49,729 nt of DNA from Rhodopseudomonas sp. AAP120 (GTDB lineage: Bacteria; Pseudomonadota; Alphaproteobacteria; Rhizobiales; Xanthobacteraceae): positions 1 through 49,729 of the forward strand of contig NZ_LJIC01000089.1 of NCBI RefSeq assembly GCF_001295845.1, given 5' to 3'. This document shows positions 1 through 39,064 of this stretch, piece after piece. The position numbers and the translations under genes were made by a program. The notes beneath the pieces are model-generated. The model was not told where the DNA came from. It saw only the letters and a list, made by a program, of their open reading frames with translations, and searched no databases. Every line of letters starts with the position of its first letter. Position 1 is the first letter of the stretch.

Positions 1-432
1 GCCGACGGGCATCGTGGATGTCCGACCCAAGCTTACGCAGTGCCCGCCGCACCGCAGCGGGAGGGTTGTGTGGAGTGGGCACTTTGACACCTTCGCACTA
101 CAAATTGAGTGAATATGTAGCACGAAGATTACAATTTTTCCAGACCCTCAAGGCTGCGGCCCCAGCAGAGCGAGAAGGTTTTATTTTACCGCCATCGCGG
201 CGGCGTCGACCCGGGAGATTCCGAACGTCGGCGATTGCGGCGACAGTGGCTTTCCGCACACACCGCTAACGCCGTGATTCGCTGGCTTGGCCTGTACGAG
301 CGTCCCGCCAATGGAACTTTGTTGGATCCAAGAAATCCAACCCTGTCAAAGGCTTACTTCTGGTGGAAGAGAGTTCCTTTCCGCCATTGGGGATTGCCGC
401 TAGATTCCAGATTTTGCGTTCTTGAGAAACCA
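1..432. other. Leader region upstream of the Argonaute gene, no convincing gene
   Basis: I see no credible gene here. Reading frames can be opened with TTG starts but the translations are Arg/Pro-rich and show no motif. An AT-richer patch around 100-140 contains TTGAGT at 105-110 and TACAAT at 130-135. Their 19-bp spacing is too long for a good promoter, so this is only a weak candidate. The Argonaute frame stays open back to a TTG at 235, but its homology begins after the ATG at 433. Confidence 0.4.
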
Positions 433-2739
433 ATGGTTCACACGACCCGTCGATCCCGAGCGCTCATCACCAACGGCTTTGTCGTTGAAACCCCGGACCT
501 CATCGAACTCGTAGTCCGTGAAATGCCAAGCCCCTCCGAAGTAAAGGCGGAGCGCGAGCGGCTGCAGGGATTCTGGTTTGTACACTGGGCGGGGGGCAAG
601 CTTTACCATTTGCGTCTGCGCGCCGGCGGCCCGAACGTTGACGGCGAGCAACTGTCAGCTTCAGCTGCGCAGTACGGATGGCTCCTGCGCTCGCGCGTCG
701 AAGATGTCATCGGGGTCGCGCTACCGAAGTATAATCCCATCCGGCGGCGGCCTTTCACATTCCTTGCGCAACACACCGAGCTCATCGAACCAGCCGCCGA
801 AAAAGCACGCATCAACCATCCGCTCATCGATCAGTTCACGGTCACTCCGCGCTTCATACTGAACCCAAAGACCTATGAGCCGGTTGACGGGCAATCGAAG
901 CTCGGCATCTTCATCAACGTTGAAATGCAGTTCGATATTTCGGCACCTTTGAATGAGCTTCAGAAGGCCAATATCGATCTCACGGGGCTCCATGTAGTCC
1001 GGCGGCAACACGAGCCGGGCAAGCGCCGTCTCGTCGGCCGTATCGCGCGTGTCGAAGGCAATGTCACTTACCTCTCTGAAAGTACCGACGGCGCGTCGTC
1101 GATAGAGACCGAACAGGTCAAGCTGGAAGGGTCGAAGGAAGGCGTTGCACGCTGCCTGACCACTATCCTCGGGCCGGGCCAGTATCGGTCCTTGATGGTC
1201 GCGCTCGACGACGAGCAGGCCGGTTACCTGTTGGGGCCTGAGTTCGATGAGGTCGTGGCCAAACTCGGAACGCTGCTTTCCCGAACAAAGCTTCCAATCG
1301 CGCTCGGGCAGGAGGCGAAGATCGGTGACCGCATCGTACTCGCCAACAGTGACACGTCGGAGACTGTCTATGTGGCTCCGCCCGTTGATTACGTCTTTGA
1401 CCGGACGGGAGCGCAGAGCAGCGCGTTTGCCTGGCCGGGGCTTACGCAGTTCGGGCCATTCGACCGGACTACCTTCGCGAATAAGTCGCCGCGCCTTCTG
1501 GTCGTATTTCCAGCCTCGACACAGGGGAAGGTGGAGGCGTTCCTGCGCGCGTTCCGCGACGGGCTTGGGGCTAATCACCGCGGCTTCGCTCGGGGTTTCA
1601 GGGACCTGTTCGGGCTCGTGAACCTCGAGTTCGTAATGTGCCCGGTTCAGGTTCAAGTATCGGACAGGGCCGGCTCGGAGGCTGCCTATCGCAGCGCCAT
1701 TGAAAACCGCTTGTCCGCCGTCGAAGATGTGCAGGGCGCGATCGTTGTTCTTTTCGAAGAGCACGCCCACCTGAAGGGACTTCAGAATCCGTATCTGCGA
1801 ACTAAGGCCCTGCTGTTGACGCTCGGGATTCCTGCGCAAGAGGTCCGCATGCCGACCGTCACGCAGATGCCGGGCAACCTGCAATACACGCTTCAGAATT
1901 TTGCGGTCTCCGTTTACGCGAAGCTAAACGGGACCCCATGGACCGTAAACCAGGACAAGGCGATCAGCGACGAACTGGTTGTCGGCATGGGCTTTGCGGA
2001 ATTTTCCGGAAGCCGCTTCGAAGACCGTCAACGATTCGTCGGTATTACGACCGTCTTCAGCGGGGACGGCACCTATCTTCTCGGCAACGTGTCGAAGGAG
2101 TGCAGTTACGCCGACTATCCGAAGATGGTGCGGGAATCCATGCTGTCGGTGCTTCGCGAACTGAAGACGCGGAACAATTGGCGGCCAGGAGACACGGTGC
2201 GGGTGATCTTCCACGCCCATCGGCCGCTCAAGCGCGTGGATGTCGGCAAGATCGTCTTTGCCTGCGTGCGCGAGATTGGCGCAGAACAGGTGCTTCAGAT
2301 GGCATTCGTTGCCGTCTCGCACGATCATCCGTTCATCATCATGGACCGCGCGGAGAAAGGTGAACCGATCAAACGCGACAGCGATATCATGAAGGGCGAG
2401 TTCGCCCCGATGCGCGGCACCATCGCGCGCATAGGCAAGTCGACGCGTCTGCTCGCCACCAACTCGCACAAGCTGATCAAGCGGGCCAATTCACCCCTGC
2501 CTGCACCATTGCTGATCAGCCTGCACCCGGACTCGACCTTCAAGGATATAGACTACATTGCCGAGCAGACGCTGAAGTTCACGAGTCTGTCATGGCGGTC
2601 GACGTTGCCGGCACGCACCCCTGTGACGATCTTTTACTCCGAACGCATCGCCGAACTCCTCGGCCGACTCAAGGATGTGCCGGATTTCTCGACCACGGCG
2701 CTATCGGTGAAGCTGAAATGGAGCCGGTGGTTCCTATGA
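433..2739 (+). CDS. ago: Long-B prokaryotic Argonaute, catalytically inactive PIWI (RsAgo-like)
   Basis: This is a prokaryotic Argonaute of about 768 aa. The family uses a small nucleic-acid guide to find complementary invader DNA; the R. sphaeroides relative uses RNA guides against plasmid DNA. The N-terminal part carries WFVHW and RAGGPNVDGE, the middle carries FDRTGAQSSAFAWPGL and GPFDR, and the MID/PIWI part carries KLNGTPWTV, DELVVGMGFAEFSG, GDGTYLLGNVSKE and VIFHAHRPLKR, ending in KWSRWFL. These match my memory of RsAgo closely. The PIWI tetrad is broken: Gly520 stands where the first catalytic Asp belongs, and His-Ala-His (594-596) replaces the DG motif. It therefore probably binds but does not cut, and needs a partner effector. 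I chose ATG 433 because family similarity starts there, with a GAGAAA ribosome site; the frame is open back to TTG 235. The stop overlaps the next start (ATGA). Confidence 0.95.
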   Translation: MVHTTRRSRALITNGFVVETPDLIELVVREMPSPSEVKAERERLQGFWFVHWAGGKLYHLRLRAGGPNVDGEQLSASAAQYGWLLRSRVEDVIGVALPKYNPIRRRPFTFLAQHTELIEPAAEKARINHPLIDQFTVTPRFILNPKTYEPVDGQSKLGIFINVEMQFDISAPLNELQKANIDLTGLHVVRRQHEPGKRRLVGRIARVEGNVTYLSESTDGASSIETEQVKLEGSKEGVARCLTTILGPGQYRSLMVALDDEQAGYLLGPEFDEVVAKLGTLLSRTKLPIALGQEAKIGDRIVLANSDTSETVYVAPPVDYVFDRTGAQSSAFAWPGLTQFGPFDRTTFANKSPRLLVVFPASTQGKVEAFLRAFRDGLGANHRGFARGFRDLFGLVNLEFVMCPVQVQVSDRAGSEAAYRSAIENRLSAVEDVQGAIVVLFEEHAHLKGLQNPYLRTKALLLTLGIPAQEVRMPTVTQMPGNLQYTLQNFAVSVYAKLNGTPWTVNQDKAISDELVVGMGFAEFSGSRFEDRQRFVGITTVFSGDGTYLLGNVSKECSYADYPKMVRESMLSVLRELKTRNNWRPGDTVRVIFHAHRPLKRVDVGKIVFACVREIGAEQVLQMAFVAVSHDHPFIIMDRAEKGEPIKRDSDIMKGEFAPMRGTIARIGKSTRLLATNSHKLIKRANSPLPAPLLISLHPDSTFKDIDYIAEQTLKFTSLSWRSTLPARTPVTIFYSERIAELLGRLKDVPDFSTTALSVKLKWSRWFL

Positions 2740-3935
2740 ACGGCGTCGTTCTCAGCATCACGGCGGCTGTTCAGGATGAGGCCAACCGCATTTTGCGGGG
2801 CTCCGGTTCCTGGCCGACCGCTGCGGCGGGTCTTGCATCCAAGATATTGCAAAGAGACGCGACGCTTTCGGGTGGACCGTTTGATCGCCCGGTGACAAAC
2901 TCAACTGCAGCGCTGTTGCGCCGAACACCGGAACTGTCGGCATACGGCTATGTCATCGATCTCGCGCCCGCGGAGACGGTCGCGCTCTGGGTAGACGAGA
3001 TCGAGCATCTGCGGGGCAGGGAGATTTATCCCGCAGACCGCAATTCCTTTATCTTCAATCCCGTGGAAATTCTTGGCGTGAGCTTCGGCCTCTGTTCCGA
3101 AAAAGTGCCAACGGAACACCGGGAGTGGCTGGCCGGAATAATCTTGCGTGGATTTTCGCAAGGCCAGTTCAAGACGAACGTGTCACGGTTTGCCGCGCTA
3201 TCTGCACTGCACCTTCTGGATAAAGAAAAGGCCAAAAGCGTCGTCGTACCGGCAGTCGCCATCAGCGGGTTGCCGACGCATGAGGTCATCGTCGCCGCCT
3301 GCATCGATTTCGCCATTGGGCTTCCCGGCGGCGCGGTGGTGGGCGATCTTGAACAAGATCTCCTGAAGCGTCTGCTTTCCGGCGCGGTGAGCATCAACGA
3401 CGAAGCAGAAGCTGCCGCGCTTCTCATTCTGGTCAACCGGGTATCTGACCGCATCAGTCTCAGCTCGCCCGACAATGCCGTGGACCAGATTGTTGCGCTG
3501 TGCCGGCGCTTTCCGCTCTTCGCCGAGCGGTTGCGCAGCCGTCAGCAGCATCGCGCACCGTTTGAGATCAAGGACGAGTACGACGTTCAGGACTTGTTGC
3601 ACGCCATCCTCAAGCTGCATTTCGATGATGTGAGGCCCGAAGAACATACGCCAAGCTATGCGGGGTCGTCCTCGCGGGTTGATTTCCACCTGCCCAAAGA
3701 GCGCGTCGTCGTCGAGGCGAAAATGACGCGCGCGTCTCTCGGGCAAAAGGAAGTCGCAAACCAGCTGATCATCGACGCTAACCGTTATCGGACCGTGCCG
3801 GGCGTGGAGACGCTTATCTGCCTGGTGTACGACCCCGAGAAGCGCTGTCAGAATCCGACGGCTCTTGAGCGTGATGTAGAGGCGAGTGGAGCCCAACTGT
3901 GCGTAAAAGCAGTTGTATGTCCGCAAGGTCTTTAG
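2736..3935 (+). CDS. Argonaute-associated PD-(D/E)XK nuclease
   Basis: A 399-aa protein whose ATG overlaps the Argonaute stop (ATGA), so the two are translationally coupled. The N-terminal 270 residues are probably helical, with no motif I can name. The C-terminal part has a PD-(D/E)XK core: SSRVDFHLPKERVVVEAKM supplies the Asp and the E-x-K, followed by a helix (KEVANQLIIDANRY) and a strand ending LVYDPEKRCQNP. This fits the nucleases encoded beside inactive long-B Argonautes, which degrade DNA after the Argonaute detects an invader. I infer that this is the effector of the Argonaute; similarity of the C-terminal domain to broadly distributed restriction-like modules is also possible. An upstream in-frame start at 2592 lies inside the Argonaute gene and is unlikely. 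Confidence 0.85.
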   Translation: MNGVVLSITAAVQDEANRILRGSGSWPTAAAGLASKILQRDATLSGGPFDRPVTNSTAALLRRTPELSAYGYVIDLAPAETVALWVDEIEHLRGREIYPADRNSFIFNPVEILGVSFGLCSEKVPTEHREWLAGIILRGFSQGQFKTNVSRFAALSALHLLDKEKAKSVVVPAVAISGLPTHEVIVAACIDFAIGLPGGAVVGDLEQDLLKRLLSGAVSINDEAEAAALLILVNRVSDRISLSSPDNAVDQIVALCRRFPLFAERLRSRQQHRAPFEIKDEYDVQDLLHAILKLHFDDVRPEEHTPSYAGSSSRVDFHLPKERVVVEAKMTRASLGQKEVANQLIIDANRYRTVPGVETLICLVYDPEKRCQNPTALERDVEASGAQLCVKAVVCPQGL

Positions 3936-4032
3936 CGGCCAGCGGGTTGAGGAGTCTATCCGAAAACAGTTGGCGCCGCAACTCGCGCGGCGGAGAACGA
4001 GTAAAAGACAGACGTTTCAACGCCGGGGGGCA

Positions 4033-6006
4033 GTGCGTATCCAATCAATCTCGATCTCAGGGTTTCGCTCCTTCGGGCCAACGCCCCAGCGCGTGTCCCT
4101 GGCAGGCGATCTGACGACCATCGTTGGACCGAATGCATCCGGCAAGACGGCGCTGCTTCAGGCGCTCGCCAAAATGTTCGGCGTAACCCGAGCGCAGCGC
4201 ACGCTCCACCGATCCGATTTCCATTTGCCAAAAGACGTAGCGCCTGACGATCGGACGACACGGGACCTGTTCATCGACGTTGTCATCACGCTTCCCGAAC
4301 TGAAAGACGGTTCAGCGACTGCAGAGGCCGTTGCCCCGACGTTTCGGCATCAGCAGCTCGAAGGACCGAAGAAGGTACCTGCTTGCCGCCTGCGGTTGGA
4401 AGCTCGCTGGCAGGACGACGGCACGGCGGAAGGAGAGGTTACGCAAGAACTGTTTTGGGTCGATCATCTCAAAGAGAAGGTCGAGGCGGACGACAAACAC
4501 ACTGTCTCACCAGCCGACCGCGGGCTTATCCAGTTCTACTACACGCCGGCCTCGCGCGACGCGGCCACACAAATCCGCGCCACTACCGGCGCGCTTGCCG
4601 CTCGCCTCATCAAAGCGATCGAGTGGTCGAAAGGCACGCGTAAAGCTGTCGATGACGCGACAAAGAAGCTCTCTGATGCCTTCGGCGGCGAAGCCGCCAT
4701 CGATGCGATAAGCAAAGCGCTCAACGTGCGATGGAAGGAATTGCACGACGAGGAGACGGACACCGATCCAGGCCTCACACTCGTCAGCAAACGGTTCGAA
4801 GAGGTCGTTGCGCATATACAAGTGATGTTTCAGCACGGGCCAGCAAAGATCGAGCGCGGCCTGGATGTGCTGAGCGACGGTCAACAATCACTCTTCTATT
4901 TCGCTCTCGCCGCCGCGGTCTTCGATTTAGAGCGCGATGCTGTGGCCACCAAGATCGAGGGATTCCGCGCGGAAGAGTTGCGCATTCCTGCTTTGAGCAT
5001 CTTCGGCCTCGAGGAGCCGGAGAACCACCTATCACCATACTACCTTTCACGCATCGTCAAGCAGGTCCGCTCCATAGTCGGCGGAAATGCGGCGCAGGCG
5101 CTCATTACAAGCCATTCACCATCGGTGCTCAGCCGTATTGAACCGACAGAGGTCCGCTATTGCCGATGTGATCAAGATACGCGTGCTTCAACTTTGCGCA
5201 CGATCGAGCTTCCCTCCGGCGCGACTGAGGCGGCTAAATTCATCCGGGGAGCGCTCTTAGCGTTTCCGGAACTCTACTTCGCGCGCTTCGTCGTCCTCGT
5301 CGAAGGTGATTCCGAACGCATCGTCATTCCCCGGCTCGCGCAGGCGGAAGGGCTCACGCTCGACCCTTCCTTTGTGGCCATCGTGCCCATCGGCGGCCGC
5401 CATGTTCAGTATTTCTGGAAGTTATTGAACAATTTATCGATTCCCCATGCGACGCTCCTTGATCTCGATCTGGGCCGTAAGGACGGTGGCTACGGGCGGG
5501 TGTCGAACTCGCTAAAGGAGCTCGTCGCTCGCGGAGAAGACCAAGATACGTTGCTGAAGGGAAAGGATTTTGTTGTCGATCCAGATAAGATGAAGGGCTG
5601 GGACTCGTCTGATTGGAGCACGCTGAAAACCTGGGTGAATTTCTTGGAGCCATACGGAGTCTTCTACTCCGCTCCGCTCGATCTCGACATGGAGATGCTC
5701 TCGGCGTTCCCGGACGCGTACAAGGCAATCATCGCCAAAGGGGGCGGCCCCTCACTTACGCCGGACGAGGCGGTGGAAGTGGTGCTCGGCAAGGGCGGAA
5801 ACGGGATCGCAGAGTACAAGGCGGCCGAATTTGCTGGCTACAAAGCCCACATGCCCGCATACCGGTATCACTTTCTGACACGCAGCAAGCCCGCAACGCA
5901 CATCGAAGTTCTGGCACATCTTGACGATAAGGCACTCAAGAAAGGAATGCCGGACGTCTACCGACGGCTCATCAAACACATCGACGAAAACCTGAACCGG
6001 GACTAG
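4033..6006 (+). CDS. OLD-family ATPase/TOPRIM nuclease, GajA-like
   Basis: About 657 aa from the GTG at 4033. The N-terminal ABC-type ATPase starts at once with QSISISGFRSFG, then Walker A GPNASGKT, a signature region VLSDGQQSLFYFALAAA, Walker B ALSIFGLEEPENHLSP and the H-loop TSHSPSVLSRI. A C-terminal TOPRIM domain follows: FVVLVEGDSERIVIPRLAQ gives the Glu and LLDLDLGRKDG gives the DxD. This is the layout of class 2 OLD nucleases such as GajA of Gabija, which nick DNA under nucleotide control with a UvrD-like GajB partner, here the next gene. It is longer than typical GajA (about 580 aa). The frame is open back to ATG 3913, which overlaps the nuclease gene, but the extra 40 residues are Arg-rich and unlike the family, so I prefer GTG 4033. 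Confidence 0.88.
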   Translation: MRIQSISISGFRSFGPTPQRVSLAGDLTTIVGPNASGKTALLQALAKMFGVTRAQRTLHRSDFHLPKDVAPDDRTTRDLFIDVVITLPELKDGSATAEAVAPTFRHQQLEGPKKVPACRLRLEARWQDDGTAEGEVTQELFWVDHLKEKVEADDKHTVSPADRGLIQFYYTPASRDAATQIRATTGALAARLIKAIEWSKGTRKAVDDATKKLSDAFGGEAAIDAISKALNVRWKELHDEETDTDPGLTLVSKRFEEVVAHIQVMFQHGPAKIERGLDVLSDGQQSLFYFALAAAVFDLERDAVATKIEGFRAEELRIPALSIFGLEEPENHLSPYYLSRIVKQVRSIVGGNAAQALITSHSPSVLSRIEPTEVRYCRCDQDTRASTLRTIELPSGATEAAKFIRGALLAFPELYFARFVVLVEGDSERIVIPRLAQAEGLTLDPSFVAIVPIGGRHVQYFWKLLNNLSIPHATLLDLDLGRKDGGYGRVSNSLKELVARGEDQDTLLKGKDFVVDPDKMKGWDSSDWSTLKTWVNFLEPYGVFYSAPLDLDMEMLSAFPDAYKAIIAKGGGPSLTPDEAVEVVLGKGGNGIAEYKAAEFAGYKAHMPAYRYHFLTRSKPATHIEVLAHLDDKALKKGMPDVYRRLIKHIDENLNRD

Positions 6007-6008
6007 TC

Positions 6009-7913
6009 ATGACGCTCGTCAGCCGCCGGGTGCAGCCCGACCAATGGAAGCCGATCGACGTCGATGCGCTCGAACTGAATGCGCTCGACGTTGTTCACTC
6101 AACCGATAATCGGTGCGTTATTGCCGGACCGGGCTCAGGCAAGACAGAACTTTTGGCTCAGCGGGCATCATACTTGCTCCAGTGCGGCATCGCACCACCG
6201 CCGAAGCGAATTCTTGCCATCAGCTATAAGCGCGACGCCGCCTCCAATCTGGCAGCGCGCGTGAAGAGCCGCTGCCATCCCGATCACGCCTATCGCTTCG
6301 ACTCGTTGACCTTTGACGCTTTCGCAAAAAGTCTCATCGACCGGTTCGGACAGGCGCTGCCCGAGCGATGGCGACCGTGCCCCGATTACAAGGTTGTCGT
6401 CGATGCGTATGATCGGACGTTCGACGAGTTCCTGCGCTTTTTGTCGCCGCCGCCAAAGGCGATCGGGAGCCGGGCCGATGTCATGGCGATCCACTCGAAG
6501 GACTTCCAGCGTCGCTGGCTATTCGGGACGCCTCTGCCCGAGGGCGCCCCGACCATCACATCTCCCGGAGAATGGGCTGCCGACCAATTCTGGCAGTCAT
6601 GGCTACACGATCCAGGCGGATCGTCGCTGACTTTCCCGATGCTCAGCCGATTGGCGGGACTGCTGATTTCGAGCAATCCTATGGTCGGTCACGCCTTGCA
6701 GCTGACCTATTCTCATCTCTTCATGGACGAATTTCAGGATACGACCCAATCGCAGTACGACCTCGCGAAGGCGATCTTTCTAGGCTCCGATACCGTGGTC
6801 ACAGCGGTCGGAGATAACAAGCAGCAGATCATGCGGTGGGCCTTGGCGATGGACGACCCGTTCACGCCATTCGAGACCGAATTCAAGGCAAAGCGCACGC
6901 CGCTGCTCAACAACTACCGTTCCTCGCCGGACCTCGTCGCTATTCAGGACGTGCTTGCGAAAGCGCTTGACGCCAAGTCGTCAACGCCGGTGTCGAAGAC
7001 AAAAGGGACGGTGTCTGGCGACAGCTGCGCCGTTTGGGACTTCTCTACACCGGCCGTGGAGGCTGATCGCCTTGCAGAGTTTGTGGGCAAACAGATGGCG
7101 GAGCACAAGCTAACGCCCCGCGACTTCTGCATTCTCATTCGTCAGAAGGCCGGCGACTATATGAAGGTGCTGGAGCCAGCTTTCGCGAAGAAAAAGCTGC
7201 CACTTCGAAACGAGGTCGAACAGGTCGGCGAGGTGACGATGCAGGAACTGCTCGTCGAAGACCTCTCCGAATTCCTCATCGTGCTTCTGCGCCTGTTTAC
7301 CACGGTGCGCGCGGGGCGGCATTGGACGGCTTGCCTCGACATGATGTGTACGCTCAACGGCCTCGCGCTCGATGATGATGCGGGACGAGCTAAGTTGGTC
7401 AAACGGCTTAATGCCTTCGAAGCGGACTTCAGGAAGACCTATCCGGTCCCGGTGACTAGCCAGGCTGACGCAAAGAAGATTGTTCAGTCGCTGATCGCCT
7501 TCATCGGGAGGGCGAACATCCTTGCCGCGTCTCCCGCATATCGTCAGGGAGATTGGTTCGACAAAGTCAGCGATGCAGCGGCACTGCATTTGGAGGCAAG
7601 TTCAAGTTCCGCCGCGAACTGGACCGAAGCTCTCGATGAATACGAAGGCGTGCACACTGTGCCGCTGATGACGATCCACAAGAGCAAAGGCTTGGAGTAT
7701 CACACGGTCATTTTCGTTGGTCTTGATGACCAGGCGTGGTGGAGCTTCGCGAACGACAAGATCGAGGCCACGGCAGGGTTTTTCGTAGCGTTCACCCGAG
7801 CGAAGCAACGTGTGCTGTTTTCATATTGTGCGCAGCGCGGCGACCGCAGTAAGATAGCTGTCCTGTATCAGCTTTTAAGCAAGGCCGGCGTTAAGACAAT
7901 TAAGGTCGCTTAG
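6009..7913 (+). CDS. UvrD/Rep-type superfamily 1 helicase, GajB-like
   Basis: A 634-aa SF1A helicase starting 2 nt after the OLD stop. All the core motifs are visible: Walker A AGPGSGKTELLAQRA, motif II FMDEFQDTTQSQYDL, motif III AVGDNKQQIMRWA, motif IV LLNNYRSSPDLV, motif V MTIHKSKGLEYHTVIFVGL and motif VI FFVAFTRAKQRVLFSY. Together with the OLD protein upstream it forms the gene pair that defines Gabija, where GajB is thought to sense DNA ends or single strands and activate GajA. It is longer than typical GajB (about 500 aa). In this window it is the last gene of the Argonaute-nuclease-OLD-helicase run; the next gene is on the other strand. Confidence 0.9.
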   Translation: MTLVSRRVQPDQWKPIDVDALELNALDVVHSTDNRCVIAGPGSGKTELLAQRASYLLQCGIAPPPKRILAISYKRDAASNLAARVKSRCHPDHAYRFDSLTFDAFAKSLIDRFGQALPERWRPCPDYKVVVDAYDRTFDEFLRFLSPPPKAIGSRADVMAIHSKDFQRRWLFGTPLPEGAPTITSPGEWAADQFWQSWLHDPGGSSLTFPMLSRLAGLLISSNPMVGHALQLTYSHLFMDEFQDTTQSQYDLAKAIFLGSDTVVTAVGDNKQQIMRWALAMDDPFTPFETEFKAKRTPLLNNYRSSPDLVAIQDVLAKALDAKSSTPVSKTKGTVSGDSCAVWDFSTPAVEADRLAEFVGKQMAEHKLTPRDFCILIRQKAGDYMKVLEPAFAKKKLPLRNEVEQVGEVTMQELLVEDLSEFLIVLLRLFTTVRAGRHWTACLDMMCTLNGLALDDDAGRAKLVKRLNAFEADFRKTYPVPVTSQADAKKIVQSLIAFIGRANILAASPAYRQGDWFDKVSDAAALHLEASSSSAANWTEALDEYEGVHTVPLMTIHKSKGLEYHTVIFVGLDDQAWWSFANDKIEATAGFFVAFTRAKQRVLFSYCAQRGDRSKIAVLYQLLSKAGVKTIKVA

Positions 7914-8286
7914 CGATGTGAAGCCGGCACGCGTATTGGGCGACAGGCACATCCGGATCGTCTTGCGCCGTCGCCATCAGATATGACTGAGCGTCATTCG
8001 CGATCGGGGATGATGGGTAAACTACGCTGACATGCAAAAATGCACGCTGAGGGCCATACGTTGTGTTCGCCGGCGAGTGTCAATGCAGATGCGTTATCGA
8101 TGCTGATGGTCTTTTTTTGGTTGCTTTCGCGTGATCGGATTCACCGTCGCACGGCCAGTTTTTTCAGTCGAATCTTAAAGCGCCCGACTTGGTATCGCCA
8201 ACGGGTACCGTGATGTCGCGAGCGCTTCGGCGTTAACCGAAGCGCTCCTGTTGCGCAGATAGTTATTCTAAGAGGTCTACTTTATT
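7914..8286. other. Convergent intergenic region
   Basis: Non-coding by eye, lying between the helicase and the leftward ParB-like gene. It contains a perfect inverted repeat (listed separately) and a T-run near 8110, but no RNA gene or transposon end that I recognise. Confidence 0.4.
8220..8247. repeat. Perfect inverted repeat, possible terminator
   Basis: GAGCGCTTCGG and CCGAAGCGCTC form 11-bp arms around the 6-nt loop cgttaa. It lies 40 nt past the ParB-like stop and about 300 nt past the helicase stop. No T-run follows on either strand, so it is at best a weak or factor-assisted bidirectional terminator, or a protein site. Confidence 0.6.
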
Positions 8287-9450
8287 TTATGCTTCTACGT
8301 CCGAGCTTTCTTTATCGTAGGCACTCATTATGGCCTCGCGGAGGGCCATGGCCCGCGTATCACCGCCCTTTAACCCGACGACATAGGCTCCCCACTCATC
8401 GGCTGATTTTGTTTGAAGGGCTTTCACGAGACGATCAGGATCGAAGTCAGGCTCGGGACGCGACATAATCCGAACGAGCCCGCCGAAAATCGCGCCGCCA
8501 TGGCGCAGCTTCTGCTCTGGGAAAGCCACAGCCATATTCGTGAGTACAGCTGAGGTAATCGCTGGTCCAAATTTTCGGATCGAGGTTGCAATGGCCGCAG
8601 TGAAAGCGATCTCGCCTGAGGCCCAGGCGGCTGATGACGTATTTCGCGCCACCCGCAACCCAGCGTCCACAACGAGCTGCTGAATTTCCAGAGCGTCCTC
8701 ATCTGCTGCGGCAAGAGCTGCGAAATAGTCATCCAGGCGGTTCATGGGTTTCCTCGCTCTGTTGGCGAGTATGAACATCCGCGCCTCCTCTTCGATGCTT
8801 TCGTATCTGAAGACGCAGCAGGGAAGCTGCGGAATATCACTTCTTCTGGAGGCAGCCATCCATCGGTGTTGACCGTCAATAATCGTAAGTGTGTCGTCGG
8901 TACGTCGGGAAACGACCAGGGGGCCACACAGGCGCCAATCGAATTTGGCTGCGATGCTCGCAATCAGCCTCCGCGAGGCTTCGTTGTCAGTAGACCTTTG
9001 GTAAACTTCGTCTACCGAGAGACGGTTCAGGTGAATCCACTCGATGGACGGTTGGGAACCGATGGGAGGCAAATAACGTGGGTGGTGGTCTACTGCCTTG
9101 GAAGCAGTCTTCGTTGTTTTGCTTTTTGTACGACCGCCTGCTCCAAACTGGCGCGCCTTCCCAGGGCCGACATTCGCGATTGGTGGCTCTGTATCTATCT
9201 TGAGCTCATCTACAAAGTCGGAGGCCTCTTCAGTCGGGCGGACCCATACGACACCGTAACGTTCTATGATGACGTTTCCGGGATGGACACGAGCGCGACC
9301 GAGCTCTGTTGTGAGCATAAACGTTCCGTTCGGCTCGATTCCTCCCACCATATGCTGTGGTATCCAGTCCGGTAAGGGAAGTTCTCCATACGTCCAAATC
9401 CTTATGTTTGAATGGTTCTGTGCGGTCGAAAGCTGCTGAGTGTACGTCAT
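8287..9450 (-). CDS. ParB-like DGQHR-motif protein beside the Wadjet operon
   Basis: A 387-aa protein with a ParB N-terminal-like core from about residue 140: LNRLSVDEVYQRS, GPLVVSRRTDDTLTIIDGQHRWMAA, then a helical C-terminal half (ANRARKPMNRLDDYFAAL). The DGQHR-W box resembles the CTP-binding/nuclease-like fold of ParB and sulfiredoxin relatives. No helix-turn-helix is obvious. The N-terminal 120 residues contain a Lys/Thr-rich linker (GGRTKSKTTKTASK). I chose ATG 9450 because GGAGACC lies 4 nt upstream; the frame also opens at 9537. It diverges from jetA across about 400 nt. Its role is unknown; association with the Wadjet system is inferred from position only. Confidence 0.75.
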   Translation of the reverse strand: MTYTQQLSTAQNHSNIRIWTYGELPLPDWIPQHMVGGIEPNGTFMLTTELGRARVHPGNVIIERYGVVWVRPTEEASDFVDELKIDTEPPIANVGPGKARQFGAGGRTKSKTTKTASKAVDHHPRYLPPIGSQPSIEWIHLNRLSVDEVYQRSTDNEASRRLIASIAAKFDWRLCGPLVVSRRTDDTLTIIDGQHRWMAASRRSDIPQLPCCVFRYESIEEEARMFILANRARKPMNRLDDYFAALAAADEDALEIQQLVVDAGLRVARNTSSAAWASGEIAFTAAIATSIRKFGPAITSAVLTNMAVAFPEQKLRHGGAIFGGLVRIMSRPEPDFDPDRLVKALQTKSADEWGAYVVGLKGGDTRAMALREAIMSAYDKESSDVEA

Positions 9451-9849
9451 CGTTGGTCTCCATGGTTGGCCGGTCGCAAATTGCAGACCGGGAGAAGGAC
9501 GATGACCTGGGGGGCGGACTACCTGATGAAGGCCCAAAAGGATAAGTAACCGAATTTGCTAGTGGCCGGAGGAAAGCTATCGCGCCAATGGGCTGAATGC
9601 CCGCCTCCGGAGAAGCGGTGCATTTGCGCCGTTCGAGGGGAACGACCGCCACGGCCCGCGGCGGCTGTCCCGTTGCATTTGTTCTCTAATTGTTCCATAT
9701 TTTGGGTTCCGGGGACAAGCCAGAACGCCTGATTTCGTGCGGGTAGACCCCGCCTCAATCTTAGTGTGTGCTCACTGGGGGAAAAGCGCATTAAAAGTTG
9801 CACTCCGTAATGCCTGCAGGGGCAATCCACAGACAAATCGATTGCGTCC
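9451..9849. other. Divergent promoter region between the ParB-like gene and jetA
   Basis: About 400 nt with no convincing gene. It should hold the promoters of both divergent genes. There is an AT-rich patch near 9672-9710 containing two TGTTC motifs, but I see no clear -35/-10 pair. Confidence 0.4.
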
Positions 9850-11301
9850 ATGTCCGACCAGCGTTTCATGTCCGCCGATGCTGCACCGCGCCTGACCAGC
9901 CATCTGCGCGCGCTGTCTTTGATTGCGCCCCTGCAGCGGGCCGAAGACAACAAGGGAATGCTGCACGTCTCCGCCAAGGCGGCGGAGCGCGTAGACATGC
10001 GCTATCTGGCGCTTGCCGCCATCGAATTGCTGATCGACCGGATGGGCGCCGGCGGCACGGCGGGCCGCGCAGAACTGATTGAATATCTTGCGGATTTGGC
10101 GCGGCTTCAGTCGCGAAATCTCTCTGACTCGGATGCCACCGCGCTGGCAGAGCATGTGTTCGACGGCTTGACCAACGCTCGCGACCGCCGCGCGCGCTTC
10201 AAGGTCCGTTTGTTTGATCCAGATCAGCCTGATGGGTTTTTTTTCGAATTCGCATTGCTGCGGGCTGAGCCGCTCCCGGACGGGACGGTGGGTTACCGGC
10301 TGACCCAGGAAGCGATTGAAATCCATCTCAGCTTGTTGGCGCACGATCCACTGACCGCGACGCAGGTCAGCGAGATCATCGTTGGAGAGTTTCTCAAGCG
10401 GGGCCTCTACGATCATGCGGTGTCCGCAGCCGAACGGACCAGAACCAACAGCATTCGTCTTGCCGAAGCGATCCGGTTGCTTATGGCGGAAGCACGCCGC
10501 GCCATCCTCAAGGTGATGTGGCACGAGGAACTTGGCCCGAAGATGGAGGAGGCGCGCAGTCTGCTGGATGCGTCCATCATGCGCGAGGGCGCCATGCTCG
10601 CCCAACTGAGTGACACGGTGGCTGACGTGACGGACGAGACGGATCGCCGCCACCTCTCGCGTATCCGCACGCTATTGCTCGATGTGCAAACGCGTCACCG
10701 CAAGCTCATCGTCGTGGTGCAGAAGACGGCCGAAGAATATTTGCACCTCCAGGCTGACACCCTCAAGCTGCGGCCCTTGGCGCGATTGCCAGATCTCGAA
10801 AATGAGATTCTCGATCCTTTGTTGCGGGCTCCGGCGAACTTCTTGATTGAGAATACATCCGGTGTCTTTGGCGCGATTTCCGGGACGCTGCCGCCGCTTG
10901 TCCTCGACATCGCAGCCGCGATCGCCGCATTCGAGCCGGACGTTGAAGAGGCGGACGTCTTCGATCCGACCGTTGAATTTGATGATCCCACCGTGGGGCT
11001 GGAATTGCCATTCGACGAGGCAACCATCGCGCGAGCTGAGCAATTTGCACGCGCGACCATTCTCGCAACGGGAGCTATCACTCTCGGTGAGATTTTGTCG
11101 CAGGCGTCGTTGGACCGCCCTGATGATGCGGCCTTTCAACGCTGTCTTTTTCTTATCCTGGAACAGGCAATCGATCCGCGCACGACAGACGTTGCCGGCG
11201 GCGCGTCGATTCTGAGCACGCGTTTCGATGCGGGGTTCGTTGAGGGCACCGATGTGAGATTCTCGCGCGCCACGGGCGGAGGAGTCCATGCTTCCGAATG
11301 A
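9850..11301 (+). CDS. jetA: Wadjet-like JetA (kleisin-like subunit)
   Basis: A 483-aa, largely helical, acidic protein and the first gene of a four-gene SMC operon. By position and size it is the MukF/kleisin-like subunit that bridges the SMC heads. The N-terminal part (residues 10-80) looks like a winged-helix dimerisation region (YLALAAIELLIDRMGAGG). A long helical middle and an acidic linker (EPDVEEADVFDPTVEFDDP, near 375-393) follow. I do not recognise it as the DUF3375 family typical of type I JetA, so the Wadjet type is left open. The ATG at 9850 follows no strong ribosome site. The 3' end overlaps jetB by 14 nt. Confidence 0.8.
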   Translation: MSDQRFMSADAAPRLTSHLRALSLIAPLQRAEDNKGMLHVSAKAAERVDMRYLALAAIELLIDRMGAGGTAGRAELIEYLADLARLQSRNLSDSDATALAEHVFDGLTNARDRRARFKVRLFDPDQPDGFFFEFALLRAEPLPDGTVGYRLTQEAIEIHLSLLAHDPLTATQVSEIIVGEFLKRGLYDHAVSAAERTRTNSIRLAEAIRLLMAEARRAILKVMWHEELGPKMEEARSLLDASIMREGAMLAQLSDTVADVTDETDRRHLSRIRTLLLDVQTRHRKLIVVVQKTAEEYLHLQADTLKLRPLARLPDLENEILDPLLRAPANFLIENTSGVFGAISGTLPPLVLDIAAAIAAFEPDVEEADVFDPTVEFDDPTVGLELPFDEATIARAEQFARATILATGAITLGEILSQASLDRPDDAAFQRCLFLILEQAIDPRTTDVAGGASILSTRFDAGFVEGTDVRFSRATGGGVHASE

Positions 11302-12013
11302 CGTGAAAGACGCCTCGAGGCTTGTCGAGTGGGGCTTGCATCCGCGTGCGCTGCCCGAAGCGCACCCAGAATACCGCGATCTGGTCCGCCGTTGGATGGA
11401 TGACGGAGGCTTCAAAGCCATTGTCGCGTCCGTCGCCGAAGGTCTGAAGCTGCGGGTGGTCGGTGTGAGCGCGCGCACGGGCATTGTGCTGGGCACGGAA
11501 ATGGAATCCGTCTTCGCTTATACGATCTCGCGCTTCCGCCGGAACGTCTCCAATGATGACGCTGCGGTCGTGGCGCTCGTGTTAGTGGCTGCGTGCGCGA
11601 CCTTTTATCCGGCACAAGATGTGCTCGACAGCGATGAGATCATGTCGCCTAGCGCGACGTTATCGGAGATCAGAGATCGTCTGACCAAGCTATGTCAGGC
11701 GTTGGAATCGCAGGATCGCAACGGCGATGCGGCAGCCGCACGCTGGCGCAAGGGCTGGCAATATATCCGGGCATTACCCGAGATCGTCGAGGATGCGCGA
11801 CGGACGGCACGCAGCCACCTGCATGGGCTCGTCGGGCTGGTCCTCAATCATCTGTTTGAAACGGGATTCGTGGCGGTCGATGAGCGTCAAGACGGAAACC
11901 ATCTTTACGTTGCCACGCCGCGTTTTCGGATGATGCTCGCAGAGCATGCCGCTGTGCCGCTTCTCGATCTGGCCCGTGGCGCCAGTGAGGCGAGGGAGAA
12001 TGCTCATGCTTAA
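11288..12013 (+). CDS. jetB: Wadjet-like JetB (KITE-like subunit)
   Basis: A 241-aa protein between the kleisin-like and SMC genes, in the position of the MukE/KITE subunit (the DUF4194 slot in Wadjet). It has a likely winged-helix pair near residues 175-220 (GLVLNHLFETGFVAVDE then LYVATPRFRMML). GGAGGA stands 4 nt before the ATG inside the end of jetA, so translation is coupled. The stop overlaps the jetC start by 8 nt. Confidence 0.8.
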   Translation: MLPNDVKDASRLVEWGLHPRALPEAHPEYRDLVRRWMDDGGFKAIVASVAEGLKLRVVGVSARTGIVLGTEMESVFAYTISRFRRNVSNDDAAVVALVLVAACATFYPAQDVLDSDEIMSPSATLSEIRDRLTKLCQALESQDRNGDAAAARWRKGWQYIRALPEIVEDARRTARSHLHGLVGLVLNHLFETGFVAVDERQDGNHLYVATPRFRMMLAEHAAVPLLDLARGASEARENAHA

Positions 12014-15000
12014 GATCAGTCGCGCATATCTGGACGCCTGCGGTTATGTCGATGGCGTGTTTGAGGAGCTTCTGATCAAGCCGACAGATGCCACCGGTTC
12101 GGCACTGCATCACGTTATTCACGCGCCCAACGGCGTCGGAAAAACCACCATCCTCGCGCTCCTGTTCAGTATTTTTGAGCCGGATCGTCGCAAGTTTCTG
12201 CGCACGGAAATCAACCGCCAACACAGGATCGAGCATTATTTCATGCCGGGACGACTTGGCGTGGTCGCGCTCGAGCTGATCAAACCCGGCGTGAACAACA
12301 AACCGGTGCGTCATGTCATCGGCCAGGTATTTTGGCTCACGCCCGCCTCCAAGGGGGATGACGGAGAACCGGGACACCGGCGGTTCTTCGCTTTACAAGC
12401 CGACGCTGACACCTCATTGGATACGTTGCCTTTCCGCGGGCTGTCGGGTGATACGCCATTGCGCTCGCTCGATGACTTCACGCGTTGGGCGCGCGACATG
12501 CGCAGCAAGCCGACATTCTTCTCCACCGACTCGCTCACTGCGTGGCGCAAGCATTTGACCTCCGAACTCGGGGTGGAGCTGAAAGTCATCGAAGTGCAAC
12601 GTCGCTTCTGTGGCACTGAGGGCGGCATCGGCGCGGCATTCCTCGATTTCAAGTCCGAGCAGCAGTTTCTCGAAAAGATTTTTGCTTTCATGATTCCGGC
12701 GGATGCTGCCGACAGTGTCGTGCAGGCCTTGGAGACCGGACTCGCGAAAATCCGCGGCCTGCCGCAGCGAAAGGACCAGCTCAAGGTTCTCACGCAGCTT
12801 GCAGACGGCTTCACGCCGTTCATTTCCGCCGCCGGGGCTCTGGAAACCGCCGAAGCCGAACGTGCCGACGACTTCAAGCGGCTAGGCCGTCTGTTCTCCC
12901 GCTTCAAGATCGATCAGACCAAGCTGGAAGTGGAATGGGAGATCGTCGGCGGTGAATTGGCTATCAAGGGGCAGGGTGTTGAAGACGCTCGCGCCCGCGA
13001 GCGCAAACTCCAAGGGGAGGTTCTCTTTCTGGAGAGGGCGGCTGCCGACCGGCGATTTAGCGATGCCAAGGCGGCAGTGGAACGGGCAAAAGACAGCTCA
13101 GCAGCTGCAGGTCGTAAACTCCAATCGGCGCGCGCCACCGATATCGGTCGCAAATTATCGTCGGCGCAGGGACAGCGGGAAGCCTTCGAGGCGGAGTTGG
13201 ACCGCATCGATCGGGATCTTGCTCCTGACCGCGCACTCCTTGCGCGCGCCGGAGCGAATCTTCACGCCTTGCTGGATCAGCTGGCTGCCGAAGCCGAGCG
13301 CGATGCCGATATCTACGAACAGCGCTCCCGTGACGCAAATCAGCTGGCTGAAGCGCACGCCGAGGAGGATCGTGCGGCGAGCGGCCGCGCACAGGAGCTG
13401 AAGGCCGAAGTCGAACGCCTCGCCGCGAGGGTGGCGGAGCATGACCGCGAGCGCAAGGAGCTTGAGCGCCAGGGTGCCATTCGCGCGGCAGAAAGTCCTG
13501 CCGCAGCGGTGGCGCGCATCGATAGCGAGTTAAAGGTTCAAGGCGATGCTGTCGCCGATACCGAATTGCAAGACGAGCAGCGAGAAAAGGAAGCGCGCGA
13601 TCTCGAAGGCGTCCGCACTGCGGCGCTTGCGGACTCGCGCCGTTGTGCAGAGGAGGCTGTGCGTCTCGCAAAGCTCGGCGAGGCCGGCCGGAGCTTGGAG
13701 CAGGCCATTCTTGGCAGCGCGGCGCTTGCCGCAATATTGGCTGGCGAATCCAAAGACCCGTATCGACCGGATTTGCCGGAGCGTGCGCGCGCCGCGCGGG
13801 CGTTATCCGAAGAAATGCACCGCAAGCTTGCGACCGAGCGCGAGGCGATCGCAGGCGAGCTTAGTTTTCTCGACGCCGAAGGGGTATCGTCCGTGCCGGC
13901 CGATGTCGCTCTGGTGGCCCGAGCTCTTAAGGAGGCCGGTATTTCCGATGCGCAGCCGGCAGAACACTATCTGGCGCAGTTCAAGCCGGATGCCGATGAA
14001 GCATTGGCGCTGTTACGCGATGATCCGGCATGCTTTGGCGGCGTGTTCGTTGCGCGCCTTGACCGCAAGCGCCTGTCGACGCTGGCAAGTGATAGCCGTC
14101 TGAAGCTCAAGGGCCCGGTGGTCGTCTCAGAGGCGACGCTGCAGACCACGGCCACGTCTGCCACGGAAACGGGAATCGTCTTTGGTCCCTTCAGCGCCGC
14201 GCGCGTTAACAAACAGGCGGCTGCAGAAGAAAAGTCTCGGCTTGCAGATGCTTTGTCAGCCAAGGAAGCGGAGCTTGTGTCCTGTGTGGCACAGATCGAG
14301 GCGATTGGCACGCTCGTCGATCAGCTCCGCGAGCTTCACAAGAACTACCGCGATGACCGCCCTGACGACATATTGCGCCGCTGCGAGCAGTTTAAGTCCG
14401 ATAAGGAGCGTGCGGATCAGCAGGTCAAGGATGCCATCGCCCGGCAAAAGGCGATTGCGCAGGAGCGTGCGCAATTCCGCGACCGTCTGCATGAGCTTGC
14501 CGATGTAATCAGCCGGCTGAAAATGGCGAAACAGGCTGTCGATCAGTTCAAACGCCGGTATGTCGATATCTCCGAAATGTCTGCGCGCATTCCGGTGGCA
14601 ACTGCTGAACAGCAGCAAGAACAGGATGCCGCGCTGAAATCTCGCGCCGCTGCCGTGAAAGCGCGTGCGGCGGCGACCGACTACGGGGGGCGTGCGGTAG
14701 CGCTTCGCGCCGATGCAAACGCACGACGATCCGACAAGGCACACTACCCGGAAACGGACGGTGCGGCCGCCGATCGAATGGGCACGTTTGACGATTTGCG
14801 CAGCCAATACAAAACGGCTGAACATGCCCTCGCCAGCAAGCGGGACGCGCAACAGGCGACGGTTTCGCTCCAGCTCTCGGCAGTGAAAGAGAGCATTTTC
14901 AAACTTGAACAGGAATACGCGCAGGCCAGCCAAGGATTGGAGCCCGCTGATCTTGAGCCGTTTAGCGCCGTTGCCGATCTTGCGCGTGCGATCAAGGAAG

Positions 15001-16352
15001 CGGATCAGAATGAGCAGGAATGCCGTGCGGCTGTCGTCCAGGTAGACGCGGCGCTAACGTCGGCGCAATCGGCGCTTGGTCCTGTCAGCGGGAAGATCGA
15101 GCGTGCTGAAAAGAAAAGCGGTCTGAAACCCATTCCGGTTCCGGAATTCGCGCAAGCGCCAGCCGAAACGTGCGCCAATGAAGCTGCTCTGCGTGAGCAA
15201 CAGGGAGAGGCGCTCGAAATCGAAATTCGCAACATGGAACGCGAGCATTCGGGTTTGCGCACGCGCCATGCTGACATCAAGGGCAAGCTGAGCGGCATCC
15301 AGGCGCTCGCCAAACGGGCTGAGGGACACCTCCCTGAAGCGAGCCGGGAAGAATTGCCAGACCTAAGCCTGAATCATGATGAGCTCGAGCCTGCGCTCGA
15401 TCAGGTTATCAGCCGGATCGGGGAGGCCCGTGCCACAATCAGCCGGCTGGACGACGAGGCCGAAGCATGTTTCGAGCAAATTCGCCAACTGATCGAAGGC
15501 GAAAGCTTCCGCCGCCTTGAACCTCAAGTGGCCGATCACCTGCGCCGTTACTCGCACCGTTCGGCCGGAACGGAGCGCGAGACGCTTCAAGCGCGTATTA
15601 TCGAGCGCATCGGAATTGTCCGCAGCGAAATAGAAAACCAGATGCGGGATCAAAATGCGTGTCTGGAACAGCTTCGGCTCCATGTCATCCACGCCGATGA
15701 TCTCCTGCTGCGCGCCGCTCGCTGTTCGAAGATTCCCGACCACATTGCCTTCTACGGCGGCGAGCGCATTTTGAAGATCAAGCGGCGCCTGCGTGACGTG
15801 CCAGTCGAAATGGTACGCAACCAGCTCTCGATCTGGTTGGACGAGCAGGTACAGACCGGACGTGTTCCCTCAGATGGTGCCGTTCTGGCTGCCGAATTGC
15901 TGAACCGTGTACACGCTGGTCGCGCGCTTGAGATCGAAATCCTCAAGCCCAAGCGGGATGCAATCCAGCCGTATATGCGCGTGGACCGTATGGGCCTGTC
16001 GGGCGGTGAGGGCGTAACCGTTGCGATGATGCTCTATACCGTGATCCAGAAGCTGGCGATGGATGAGCGTACAGACGGAAAGAACGCAGCCTCGGGCGGT
16101 TTCTTGATGCTCGACAATACGTACGGCATGTCCAACATGATGGAGCACATTGTTCTGCAGAAAACGATGGCGGACCTGTTGGACATTCAGCTATTCGTGA
16201 CGACGTGCAGCGAGGACAAGCACGTCCTCAACATGTTTCCCGCGATTACGCGCTTGGTGCAGGGCGAGCGCGTCCTGTTGGATGGGCAGCCGAAATACAT
16301 CCGCGTGCGCTCCGGCGACTATCTGCTGAAGGGGGGCGAACGTGCCGCCTGA
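12006..16352 (+). CDS. jetC: Wadjet-like JetC (SMC/MukB-like ATPase)
   Basis: A 1448-aa SMC-type ATPase, the DNA loop-extruding motor of Wadjet. The head begins at once: HVIHAPNGVGKTTILALLF (Walker A, near residue 40). More than 900 residues of coiled coil follow, rich in Ala, Glu, Arg and Gln. The C-terminal head half has the signature GLSGGEGVTVAMMLYTVIQK and a Walker B-like FLMLDNTYG, then LDIQLFVTTCSEDKHVL. Asn follows the Walker B Asp where a catalytic Glu is usual, a MukB-like LDN feature. AGGGAG lies 8 nt before ATG 12006; another in-frame ATG at 12000 is less well spaced. It overlaps jetB by 8 nt and jetD by 11 nt. Wadjet complexes extrude and cleave circular plasmids. Confidence 0.9.
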   Translation: MLKISRAYLDACGYVDGVFEELLIKPTDATGSALHHVIHAPNGVGKTTILALLFSIFEPDRRKFLRTEINRQHRIEHYFMPGRLGVVALELIKPGVNNKPVRHVIGQVFWLTPASKGDDGEPGHRRFFALQADADTSLDTLPFRGLSGDTPLRSLDDFTRWARDMRSKPTFFSTDSLTAWRKHLTSELGVELKVIEVQRRFCGTEGGIGAAFLDFKSEQQFLEKIFAFMIPADAADSVVQALETGLAKIRGLPQRKDQLKVLTQLADGFTPFISAAGALETAEAERADDFKRLGRLFSRFKIDQTKLEVEWEIVGGELAIKGQGVEDARARERKLQGEVLFLERAAADRRFSDAKAAVERAKDSSAAAGRKLQSARATDIGRKLSSAQGQREAFEAELDRIDRDLAPDRALLARAGANLHALLDQLAAEAERDADIYEQRSRDANQLAEAHAEEDRAASGRAQELKAEVERLAARVAEHDRERKELERQGAIRAAESPAAAVARIDSELKVQGDAVADTELQDEQREKEARDLEGVRTAALADSRRCAEEAVRLAKLGEAGRSLEQAILGSAALAAILAGESKDPYRPDLPERARAARALSEEMHRKLATEREAIAGELSFLDAEGVSSVPADVALVARALKEAGISDAQPAEHYLAQFKPDADEALALLRDDPACFGGVFVARLDRKRLSTLASDSRLKLKGPVVVSEATLQTTATSATETGIVFGPFSAARVNKQAAAEEKSRLADALSAKEAELVSCVAQIEAIGTLVDQLRELHKNYRDDRPDDILRRCEQFKSDKERADQQVKDAIARQKAIAQERAQFRDRLHELADVISRLKMAKQAVDQFKRRYVDISEMSARIPVATAEQQQEQDAALKSRAAAVKARAAATDYGGRAVALRADANARRSDKAHYPETDGAAADRMGTFDDLRSQYKTAEHALASKRDAQQATVSLQLSAVKESIFKLEQEYAQASQGLEPADLEPFSAVADLARAIKEADQNEQECRAAVVQVDAALTSAQSALGPVSGKIERAEKKSGLKPIPVPEFAQAPAETCANEAALREQQGEALEIEIRNMEREHSGLRTRHADIKGKLSGIQALAKRAEGHLPEASREELPDLSLNHDELEPALDQVISRIGEARATISRLDDEAEACFEQIRQLIEGESFRRLEPQVADHLRRYSHRSAGTERETLQARIIERIGIVRSEIENQMRDQNACLEQLRLHVIHADDLLLRAARCSKIPDHIAFYGGERILKIKRRLRDVPVEMVRNQLSIWLDEQVQTGRVPSDGAVLAAELLNRVHAGRALEIEILKPKRDAIQPYMRVDRMGLSGGEGVTVAMMLYTVIQKLAMDERTDGKNAASGGFLMLDNTYGMSNMMEHIVLQKTMADLLDIQLFVTTCSEDKHVLNMFPAITRLVQGERVLLDGQPKYIRVRSGDYLLKGGERAA

Positions 16353-17382
16353 GGCAGCGCGCCGCCTTGTGCGCGCTCTCAAGAAAACGGGACGAAGGCG
16401 TATCCCGCTAGACATGCTCCGCCGGGAATTCGCCGCGGCATGCCCCGAACTTGCGGAGCAACCGGATCGGCGCACCCGCTTGGCTGAGGCGCTACTCAAT
16501 GCTGCGGACACGGGTGAGATACTTCTTCCCAAGCAAAGACGAAGCTGGGACCGCGCCGGCGGTGCGGCCCTGCCGGGATTTGTTATGCTTGTCGGTCAAC
16601 GACAACCCCGACCACCCGTCATTATTGCCGGCTATGCTTGGCATCCATTGCTTAGTTTTGCAGCAGGAGAGCGCAACCGGTTGCGGCTAGAATCGGCTAA
16701 GCGCATCAACGAATGGCTCAAAAGTGATCCCGATTTGAGCCTCATCGTGCCGATCAAGGAACGTTCGTTAGAGATTTTCGGCGACGAAAAGCGGCTCGAT
16801 CAACTACGCGGCGGTACAACCAATCTTTTCGGGCAAGTCAGTCTCAGTTCACTCGGTTGCCGTCTATGCCCCATTCCTTTGCCATTCGAGGCGGGACCCG
16901 CAGCTGCACGCGGCCAGCCGATCCTCATTGTTGAGAACAACGACACATGGGCCTCGTTTTCCGCCTGGAACCGCGGTGTGGGACGCTACGCCGCCGTTGC
17001 CTATGCCGGCGGCGGTCACGGCAAGAGTCTGGCCTACGATGAAATGTTTATCGACGAATTGATCAGTCGGTTCCAGTCCGAAGGACTTTTCTACTTTGGC
17101 GATCTCGACCCCGCGGGGCTGCGCATTGCGAGCCGGGCAGCGGAGCGCCGTGCGCTTCGGGGCAGCCTGGCGCTTCAACCTGCTGCGGCGCTCTACGCTT
17201 GGCTTCTCGACCGCGGTACGCGAACAAGTCTACAGCGCACTGAAAAGGCAACAGTAGCCGACCTCGTTTGGCTTCCGGAATACTTGCGCGATCCCGTCGA
17301 AGCTCTCTTCGCCAAAGGACACCGTATTCCTCAAGAATCCCTGGGTACGCGCGCGCTCGCAGTCGGCGACATTCATTTTTGA
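16342..17382 (+). CDS. jetD: Wadjet-like JetD (TOPRIM nuclease)
   Basis: A 346-aa protein starting at a GTG inside the end of jetC, preceded by a G-rich ribosome site. The N-terminal part is Arg-rich and helical and may be a DNA-binding arm. The C-terminal TOPRIM domain shows ILIVENNDTWASF (catalytic Glu) and FYFGDLDPAGLRIA (DxD), the pattern of DUF2220-type JetD. In Wadjet this subunit makes the cut once the SMC motor has extruded the plasmid. The catalytic residues appear intact, and so does the whole jetABCD operon. Confidence 0.88.
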   Translation: MPPEAARRLVRALKKTGRRRIPLDMLRREFAAACPELAEQPDRRTRLAEALLNAADTGEILLPKQRRSWDRAGGAALPGFVMLVGQRQPRPPVIIAGYAWHPLLSFAAGERNRLRLESAKRINEWLKSDPDLSLIVPIKERSLEIFGDEKRLDQLRGGTTNLFGQVSLSSLGCRLCPIPLPFEAGPAAARGQPILIVENNDTWASFSAWNRGVGRYAAVAYAGGGHGKSLAYDEMFIDELISRFQSEGLFYFGDLDPAGLRIASRAAERRALRGSLALQPAAALYAWLLDRGTRTSLQRTEKATVADLVWLPEYLRDPVEALFAKGHRIPQESLGTRALAVGDIHF

Positions 17383-38689: not shown

Positions 38690-38811
38690 CGCGCCGTGTC
38701 CGTCGGTTGATCATCGCCCCTGGGGACGATGCGAAACCGGCGAACGGACCTGCACTCCGAACGGCCGAACTTCACCCCGGAACACCCCGCCCGGAATGGC
38801 GTCAATCAGCA

Positions 38812-38990: not shown

Positions 38991-39064
38991 CGGCGGAGCG
39001 ATGTTTGATCGGAAAACAGCGGGGTGTCAATCGAACTCACCGGCCAGCTGGCCGGCGGCTCGGC

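Follow-up and report, generated by a model that had tools for sequence, protein, structure and literature searches.

Four genes on one strand, an Argonaute and a nuclease followed at once by an OLD nuclease and a UvrD-like helicase, raise the question whether a single defence machine or two neighbouring ones are encoded here. An earlier note on this DNA had put forward a fused four-gene system. The window, i.e., the whole stretch of DNA analysed, comprises 49,729 bases and is the entire contig of the assembly. The run very probably consists of two known defence systems lying as neighbours in one island, a BPAN unit just upstream of a complete Gabija unit, with Wadjet following.

Gene layout and neighbouring genes

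The four genes were found on the same strand between positions 433 and 7913.

433-2739, + strand, Argonaute ORF, 768 aa
2736-3935, + strand, nuclease ORF, 399 aa
4033-6006, + strand, OLD/GajA ORF, GTG start, 657 aa
6009-7913, + strand, UvrD/GajB ORF, 634 aa

The Argonaute and nuclease ORFs overlap at ATGA (2736-2739), the spacer from the nuclease to gajA is 97 nt, and 2 nt separate the gajA stop codon TAG from the gajB ATG. These junctions agree with the earlier note, and the families it had named, a long-B RsAgo-like Argonaute with its nuclease and an OLD plus UvrD pair, were borne out by PADLOC, Pfam, NCBIfam and structure matches. Further downstream the contig carries the following genes.

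8287-9537, - strand, DUF6551-domain protein between Gabija and Wadjet
9850-17382, + strand, Wadjet operon JetA-JetB-JetC-JetD (PADLOC), third defence system of the contig
9850-11301, JetA3 of this operon (PADLOC)
11288-12013, JetB3 (PADLOC, weak, E=2.6e-7)
11946-16352, JetC3 (PADLOC)
16342-17382, JetD3 (PADLOC)

The protein encoded at 8287-9537 matched DUF6551 with 34.8 bits (cut-off 26.8) and DGQHR with 28.7 bits, below the cut-off of 58.85; the gene is a neighbour and part of neither Gabija nor Wadjet. According to PADLOC, BPAN, Gabija and Wadjet all lie inside 17.4 kb. A DUF4365-domain protein, perhaps another island gene, is encoded shortly after Wadjet at 19317-20303, and a Cobalamin riboswitch (RF00174, 118 bits) was found on the - strand at 38801-39006, far from the four-gene run.

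The Argonaute and its nuclease

The Argonaute scored 1417.8 bits against NCBIfam NF052569 (protein argonaute; cut-off 700) and 721 bits against PADLOC pAgo_II. Structures 6d8a, 6d95 and 5awh, which we take to be RsAgo (the 6d8a entry itself is labelled uncharacterized protein), gave 1094.6-1096.5 bits, with 1096.5 for 6d8a, and the match to RsAgo runs end to end. The protein is classified on these matches as an RsAgo-type long-B Argonaute. The guide 5'-phosphate pocket of RsAgo is made up of Y463, K467, Q478 and K506, as given in the 2018 Argonaute survey (PMC6299218). In the structure alignment these residues fall on Y454, K458, Q469 and K497 of the window Argonaute, so that all four are kept; they were placed with a 14-residue offset counted by hand, and the letters were verified in the sequence. 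Since the same survey describes the DEDX catalytic tetrad as absent from every long-B pAgo considered there (PMC6299218), and since the match to RsAgo is end to end, the PIWI domain of the window protein is expected to lack the tetrad as well.

The second gene product matched PADLOC Aga_Helical-REase (E=8.8e-60) and Pfam DpnII-MboI (E=3.6e-46). It carries D...EAK, with E327-A-K, which we read as the PD-(D/E)XK motif. The protein can be assigned to the Argonaute-associated PD-(D/E)XK nucleases (helical-REase), and is bAgaN-like. The features of a BPAN unit, a long-B Argonaute and a PD-(D/E)XK nuclease gene directly downstream with an ATGA overlap, are present in the sequence. For the E. coli BPAN it is reported that the partner nuclease is activated once invader DNA has been recognised by means of a guide RNA, whereby the cell is killed or the plasmid is depleted; in the same source the gene downstream of RsAgo is said to encode a predicted nuclease (PMC10620215). 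The window pair, too, is predicted to recognise DNA through a guide RNA and thereby to set off collateral DNA degradation.

The Gabija pair

GajA matched the PADLOC GajA model PDLC00090 with E=3.3e-241 over residues 2-655 (model 659 positions), and GajB matched PDLC00103 with E=1.8e-221 over residues 6-632 (model 612 positions). A Pfam OLD-like_TOPRIM match and the motifs GPNASGKT at 32, EGD at 424 and DLD at 477 were recorded in GajA; UvrD-helicase and UvrD_C matches were recorded in GajB, together with DEFQD at 240, VGDNKQ at 267, TIHKSKGLE at 555 and AFTRAK at 594. With the GajA domains and motifs present and a UvrD-like gajB directly after gajA, the third and fourth genes are, as judged from their sequences, a full Gabija pair of an OLD ATPase/TOPRIM nuclease and a UvrD-like SF1 helicase. 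The earlier note had regarded the OLD and helicase proteins as longer than standard, possibly by adaptation. The PADLOC models speak against this, and so do the nearer Argonaute-free relatives that were measured, in which GajA has 655-660 aa (L040, L042, L043, L044, L046) and GajB 630-634 aa (L040, L043, L044, L046). The lengths of the window proteins are normal for their subfamily. GajA and GajB are described as forming a 4:4 complex (PMC10822852; PMC10781630), and a preprint proposes linear DNA that is free of RecBCD as the target of Gabija (PMC12407980).

Start and leader of gajA

A gajA start at 3913 (TTG), by which the two halves of the run would overlap as the earlier note had considered, is less likely, since five related loci (L003, L033, L040, L041, L042) have a GTG at the position equivalent to 4033. 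Upstream of this GTG lies one further feature.

3970-3998, + strand, promoter-like gajA element, TTGGCG - 17 nt - GAGAAC, putative promoter

In L003, L033, L040 and L041 the start of gajA aligns together with some 75 nt of the leader, with TTGACG and, 17 nt on, GA(C/A)AA. The -35-like hexamer is TTGGCG in the window (3970-3975) and TTGACG at the equivalent place in the relatives. L040 and L041 share this aligned leader though no similar Argonaute is nearby. Local-alignment scores of 85-nt leaders were compared with those of 500 shuffles. The window leader scored 25 with L003 (reached by 0 of 500 shuffles), a moderate 13 with L041 (11 of 500) and 9 with L040, which is not above chance (123 of 500). 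Among the relatives the scores were 27 for L003-L040 and 17 for L040-L041 (0 of 500 each), and 14 for L003-L041 (2 of 500). The leaders of six more distant loci were unlike each other beyond a few weak pairs. A consensus promoter scan gave no promoter at the gajA leader and was uninformative, as its sites were no more numerous than in shuffles.

As Argonaute-free loci have this start and leader in common with Argonaute-linked ones, gajA probably has a promoter of its own, with a -35-like box that has changed in the window. Given TTGGCG here and TTGACG in the relatives, this promoter may be weaker than theirs. The scan listed no + strand terminator-like site in the 97-nt gap; the nearest one upstream lies at 3659-3676, inside the nuclease gene, and positions 1-10000 hold nine such sites against a shuffle mean of 10.4. 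Transcription of the Argonaute operon may therefore run on into gajA.

Gabija beside close relatives of the Argonaute

Argonaute relatives were searched in overlapping samples of the family (198 genomes), the order (397), the class (385), the own genus (16) and further genera (265 and 43 genomes); in the family, order, class and 265-genome samples, first-look candidates were scored up to a set number per genome. A further contig scan gave four loci. Four weak matches (E 1.8e-5 to 2.1e-4; L009-L012) were left out, and the R. sphaeroides RsAgo locus itself was not among the survey matches. Close Argonaute-nuclease pairs (67-100% identity) were found in at least five distinct lineages, and intact gajAB stood beside the pair in one of the five, the window only.

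In the Pseudolabrys-type locus (L002/L003/L033/L047) the Argonaute is 89-90% identical. The Argonaute pair is open end to end; beyond a spacer of 267 nt, in the same order and on the same strand, come codons 1-290 of the same gajA, where the homology ends. A search for gajB in the two Pseudolabrys-type assemblies, 99% and 82% complete, found none. L002/L033 and L003/L047 are near-identical (99.5% over 12.5 kb); they represent two genomes of one genus and were counted as one lineage. Beyond codon 290, at 14638-17543 of L003, an inverted CBASS-like remnant with a transposase piece was observed; the set comprises an exonuclease effector, a HORMA protein and a cyclase without its N-terminal part.

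The Bradyrhizobium loci (L004 and L058, counted as one lineage) have an Argonaute of 85% identity and, 1.3 kb downstream, a Gabija-like pair that belongs to a different subfamily (PADLOC GajA E=4.8e-72, GajB E=1.6e-44). A 165-codon opposite-strand ORF lies between the two pairs, and Pfam listed no TOPRIM domain in this GajA. Two genomes of the same genus, in a search with first-look candidates likewise scored up to a set number per genome, carry relatives of it (91-93%), and a window-like Argonaute is present in two of the 265 genomes of that genus. Neither L056 (Argonaute 75%) nor L067 (Argonaute 67%, in a genome of the same genus as the Pseudolabrys-type genomes) has Gabija in the 8 kb downstream; in L056 the opposite-strand gene beyond the nuclease is presumably lepA, from its first residues.

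The more distant RsAgo-like loci (26-35% identity) had Gabija in one of 13 fetched stretches (L005, L034-L039, L059-L064, with L037 at 3.2 kb and L005 at 7.5 kb being short contigs), namely L034, where it lies 9 kb away. Six of the ten plasmid records with an Argonaute match were examined with home-made profiles, up to 8 kb on each side, and held no Gabija; a GajA match was recorded in 55 plasmid records. Pattern-matching stretches were found in viral contigs, and none of them encodes an Argonaute or GajA relative.

Argonaute beside relatives of GajA

A GajA match at E <= 1e-30 was obtained in 15 of 391 family genomes, with first-look candidates again scored up to a set number in each. In 11 of the 15 the fetched stretch holds no similar Argonaute, as judged by tblastn with the window's Argonaute (E <= 1e-4), a measure by which an unlike Argonaute would be missed; among the 11, the sequence upstream of gajA is limited to 448 bases in L042, and L051 has a partial GajA match (residues 3-238). 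The other four are the window, two Pseudolabrys-type fragments and L034, whose Argonaute is 9 kb off. Upstream neighbours of Argonaute-free gajA mostly vary by locus. L045, L046 and L051, none of which has a similar Argonaute, share a same-strand gene for a 423-425 aa protein 842-860 nt upstream of gajA (L045:11410-12681, L046:6936-8207, L051:7110-8387). Its first residues are similar by eye and L045 and L046 are close kin; the protein may regularly accompany this group of Gabija loci.

History of the linkage

The Pseudolabrys-type lineage is about 24% diverged in DNA from the window. Identity between the window and L003 is 76% for the Argonaute-nuclease block and 77% for the gajA part, a similarity in divergence that would agree with a shared origin of the linked block. 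Over the first 290 gajA codons, the window is 91.7% identical to the Argonaute-free L040 and 89.3% to the Argonaute-linked L003. The tree of these codons places the window, L003, L040 and L041 in one unresolved fork. A single clade of Argonaute-linked gajA has no tree support and was not rejected by the AU test (p-AU 0.117).

One system or two neighbours

A functional four-gene system, in which the GajA/GajB nuclease-helicase is likewise fed by the guide-directed recognition of the Argonaute, would be in keeping with the tight same-strand packing, with the order common to the Pseudolabrys-type lineage and with another Gabija downstream in Bradyrhizobium. Yet all four genes are intact in only one of the five close lineages found, 11 of the 15 genomes with this GajA subfamily show no similar Argonaute close to it, the gajA leader is common to Argonaute-free loci and the protein lengths are not unusual, and we regard such a system as hardly credible. 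The fused system of the earlier note is not supported, because in relatives either pair is met without its counterpart, and no gajB was found in the Pseudolabrys-type assemblies. The note had suggested a search for co-occurrence: the order recurs beyond this genome, with a gajA fragment in the Pseudolabrys-type locus, but the four intact genes do so in no other of the five lineages. The adjacency is not unique to the window genome, since the order recurs there and Gabija is also found downstream in Bradyrhizobium. Against pure accident stand the recurrence in a lineage about 24% diverged and the other Gabija downstream in a third. It might be that RsAgo-type BPAN units of this bacterial family (Xanthobacteraceae) repeatedly recruit a downstream Gabija because the two cooperate, either with nuclease-made DNA ends as substrates of GajA/GajB or with Gabija as a back-up when the Argonaute is evaded; the recruited subfamily would be one in the window and the Pseudolabrys-type locus and another in Bradyrhizobium. 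We consider this very improbable.

Two further readings fit the neighbouring of two systems and concern how it came about and how it is expressed. The four-gene block may be ancestral to the window and the Pseudolabrys-type lineage, the latter having lost most of gabija. The near-equal identities of the two blocks and the clade that the AU test did not reject speak for such an old linkage, but the gajA tree does not join the window with L003, its fork includes the Argonaute-free L040 and L041, and the window gajA is slightly closer to L040; we give the old linkage somewhat less than an even chance. The four genes could also share an operon without mechanistic coupling, with gajAB co-regulated and expressed mainly by read-through from the Argonaute promoter. 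The gap without a listed + strand terminator-like site and the deviating TTGGCG agree with this, whereas the conservation of the leader across Argonaute-linked and Argonaute-free loci and the 267-nt spacer of the Pseudolabrys-type locus do not; we regard it as rather unlikely.

For two neighbouring systems, the proposed working follows from the families. The Argonaute would load 5'-phosphorylated RNA guides, recognise matching invader DNA without cutting it and switch on its partner nuclease, by which DNA would be degraded and plasmid-bearing cells removed. GajA and GajB would separately form a nuclease-helicase complex attacking unprotected phage DNA, and the two units would act in parallel. 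Parallel action is favoured and a shared transcript is possible; mechanistic coupling of BPAN and Gabija finds no direct support.

In the open-licence literature, no report of an Argonaute-Gabija pairing was found among titles and abstract beginnings. Neither the BPAN paper (PMC10620215) nor the 2018 Argonaute survey (PMC6299218) uses the word Gabija in its main text, and the latter notes UvrD-helicase proteins among the operon neighbours of Argonautes. The present result guards against wrongly claiming a machine in which Argonaute and Gabija are fused, and it provides a naturally occurring example of two nuclease systems with 97 nt between them. Should cooperation be true, guide-directed sensing would be linked to an end-directed nuclease-helicase.

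Comparison with known systems

With RsAgo and its nuclease, and with EcBPAN, the window shares the two-gene operon arrangement in which the gene of an RsAgo-type Argonaute precedes that of a PD-(D/E)XK nuclease, as described in PMC10620215, and the window pair itself shows nothing distinctive. With Gabija it shares the OLD ATPase/TOPRIM nuclease and UvrD-like helicase as a two-gene unit with near end-to-end PADLOC matches; it differs in belonging to a subfamily with longer proteins, whose similarity to the GajA and GajB chains of known structure is only weak (E from about 5e-6 and 1e-4, respectively). As in a defence island of stand-alone systems, BPAN, Gabija and Wadjet lie within 17.4 kb, but the 97-nt spacing between BPAN and Gabija is, in our judgement, short for independent systems.
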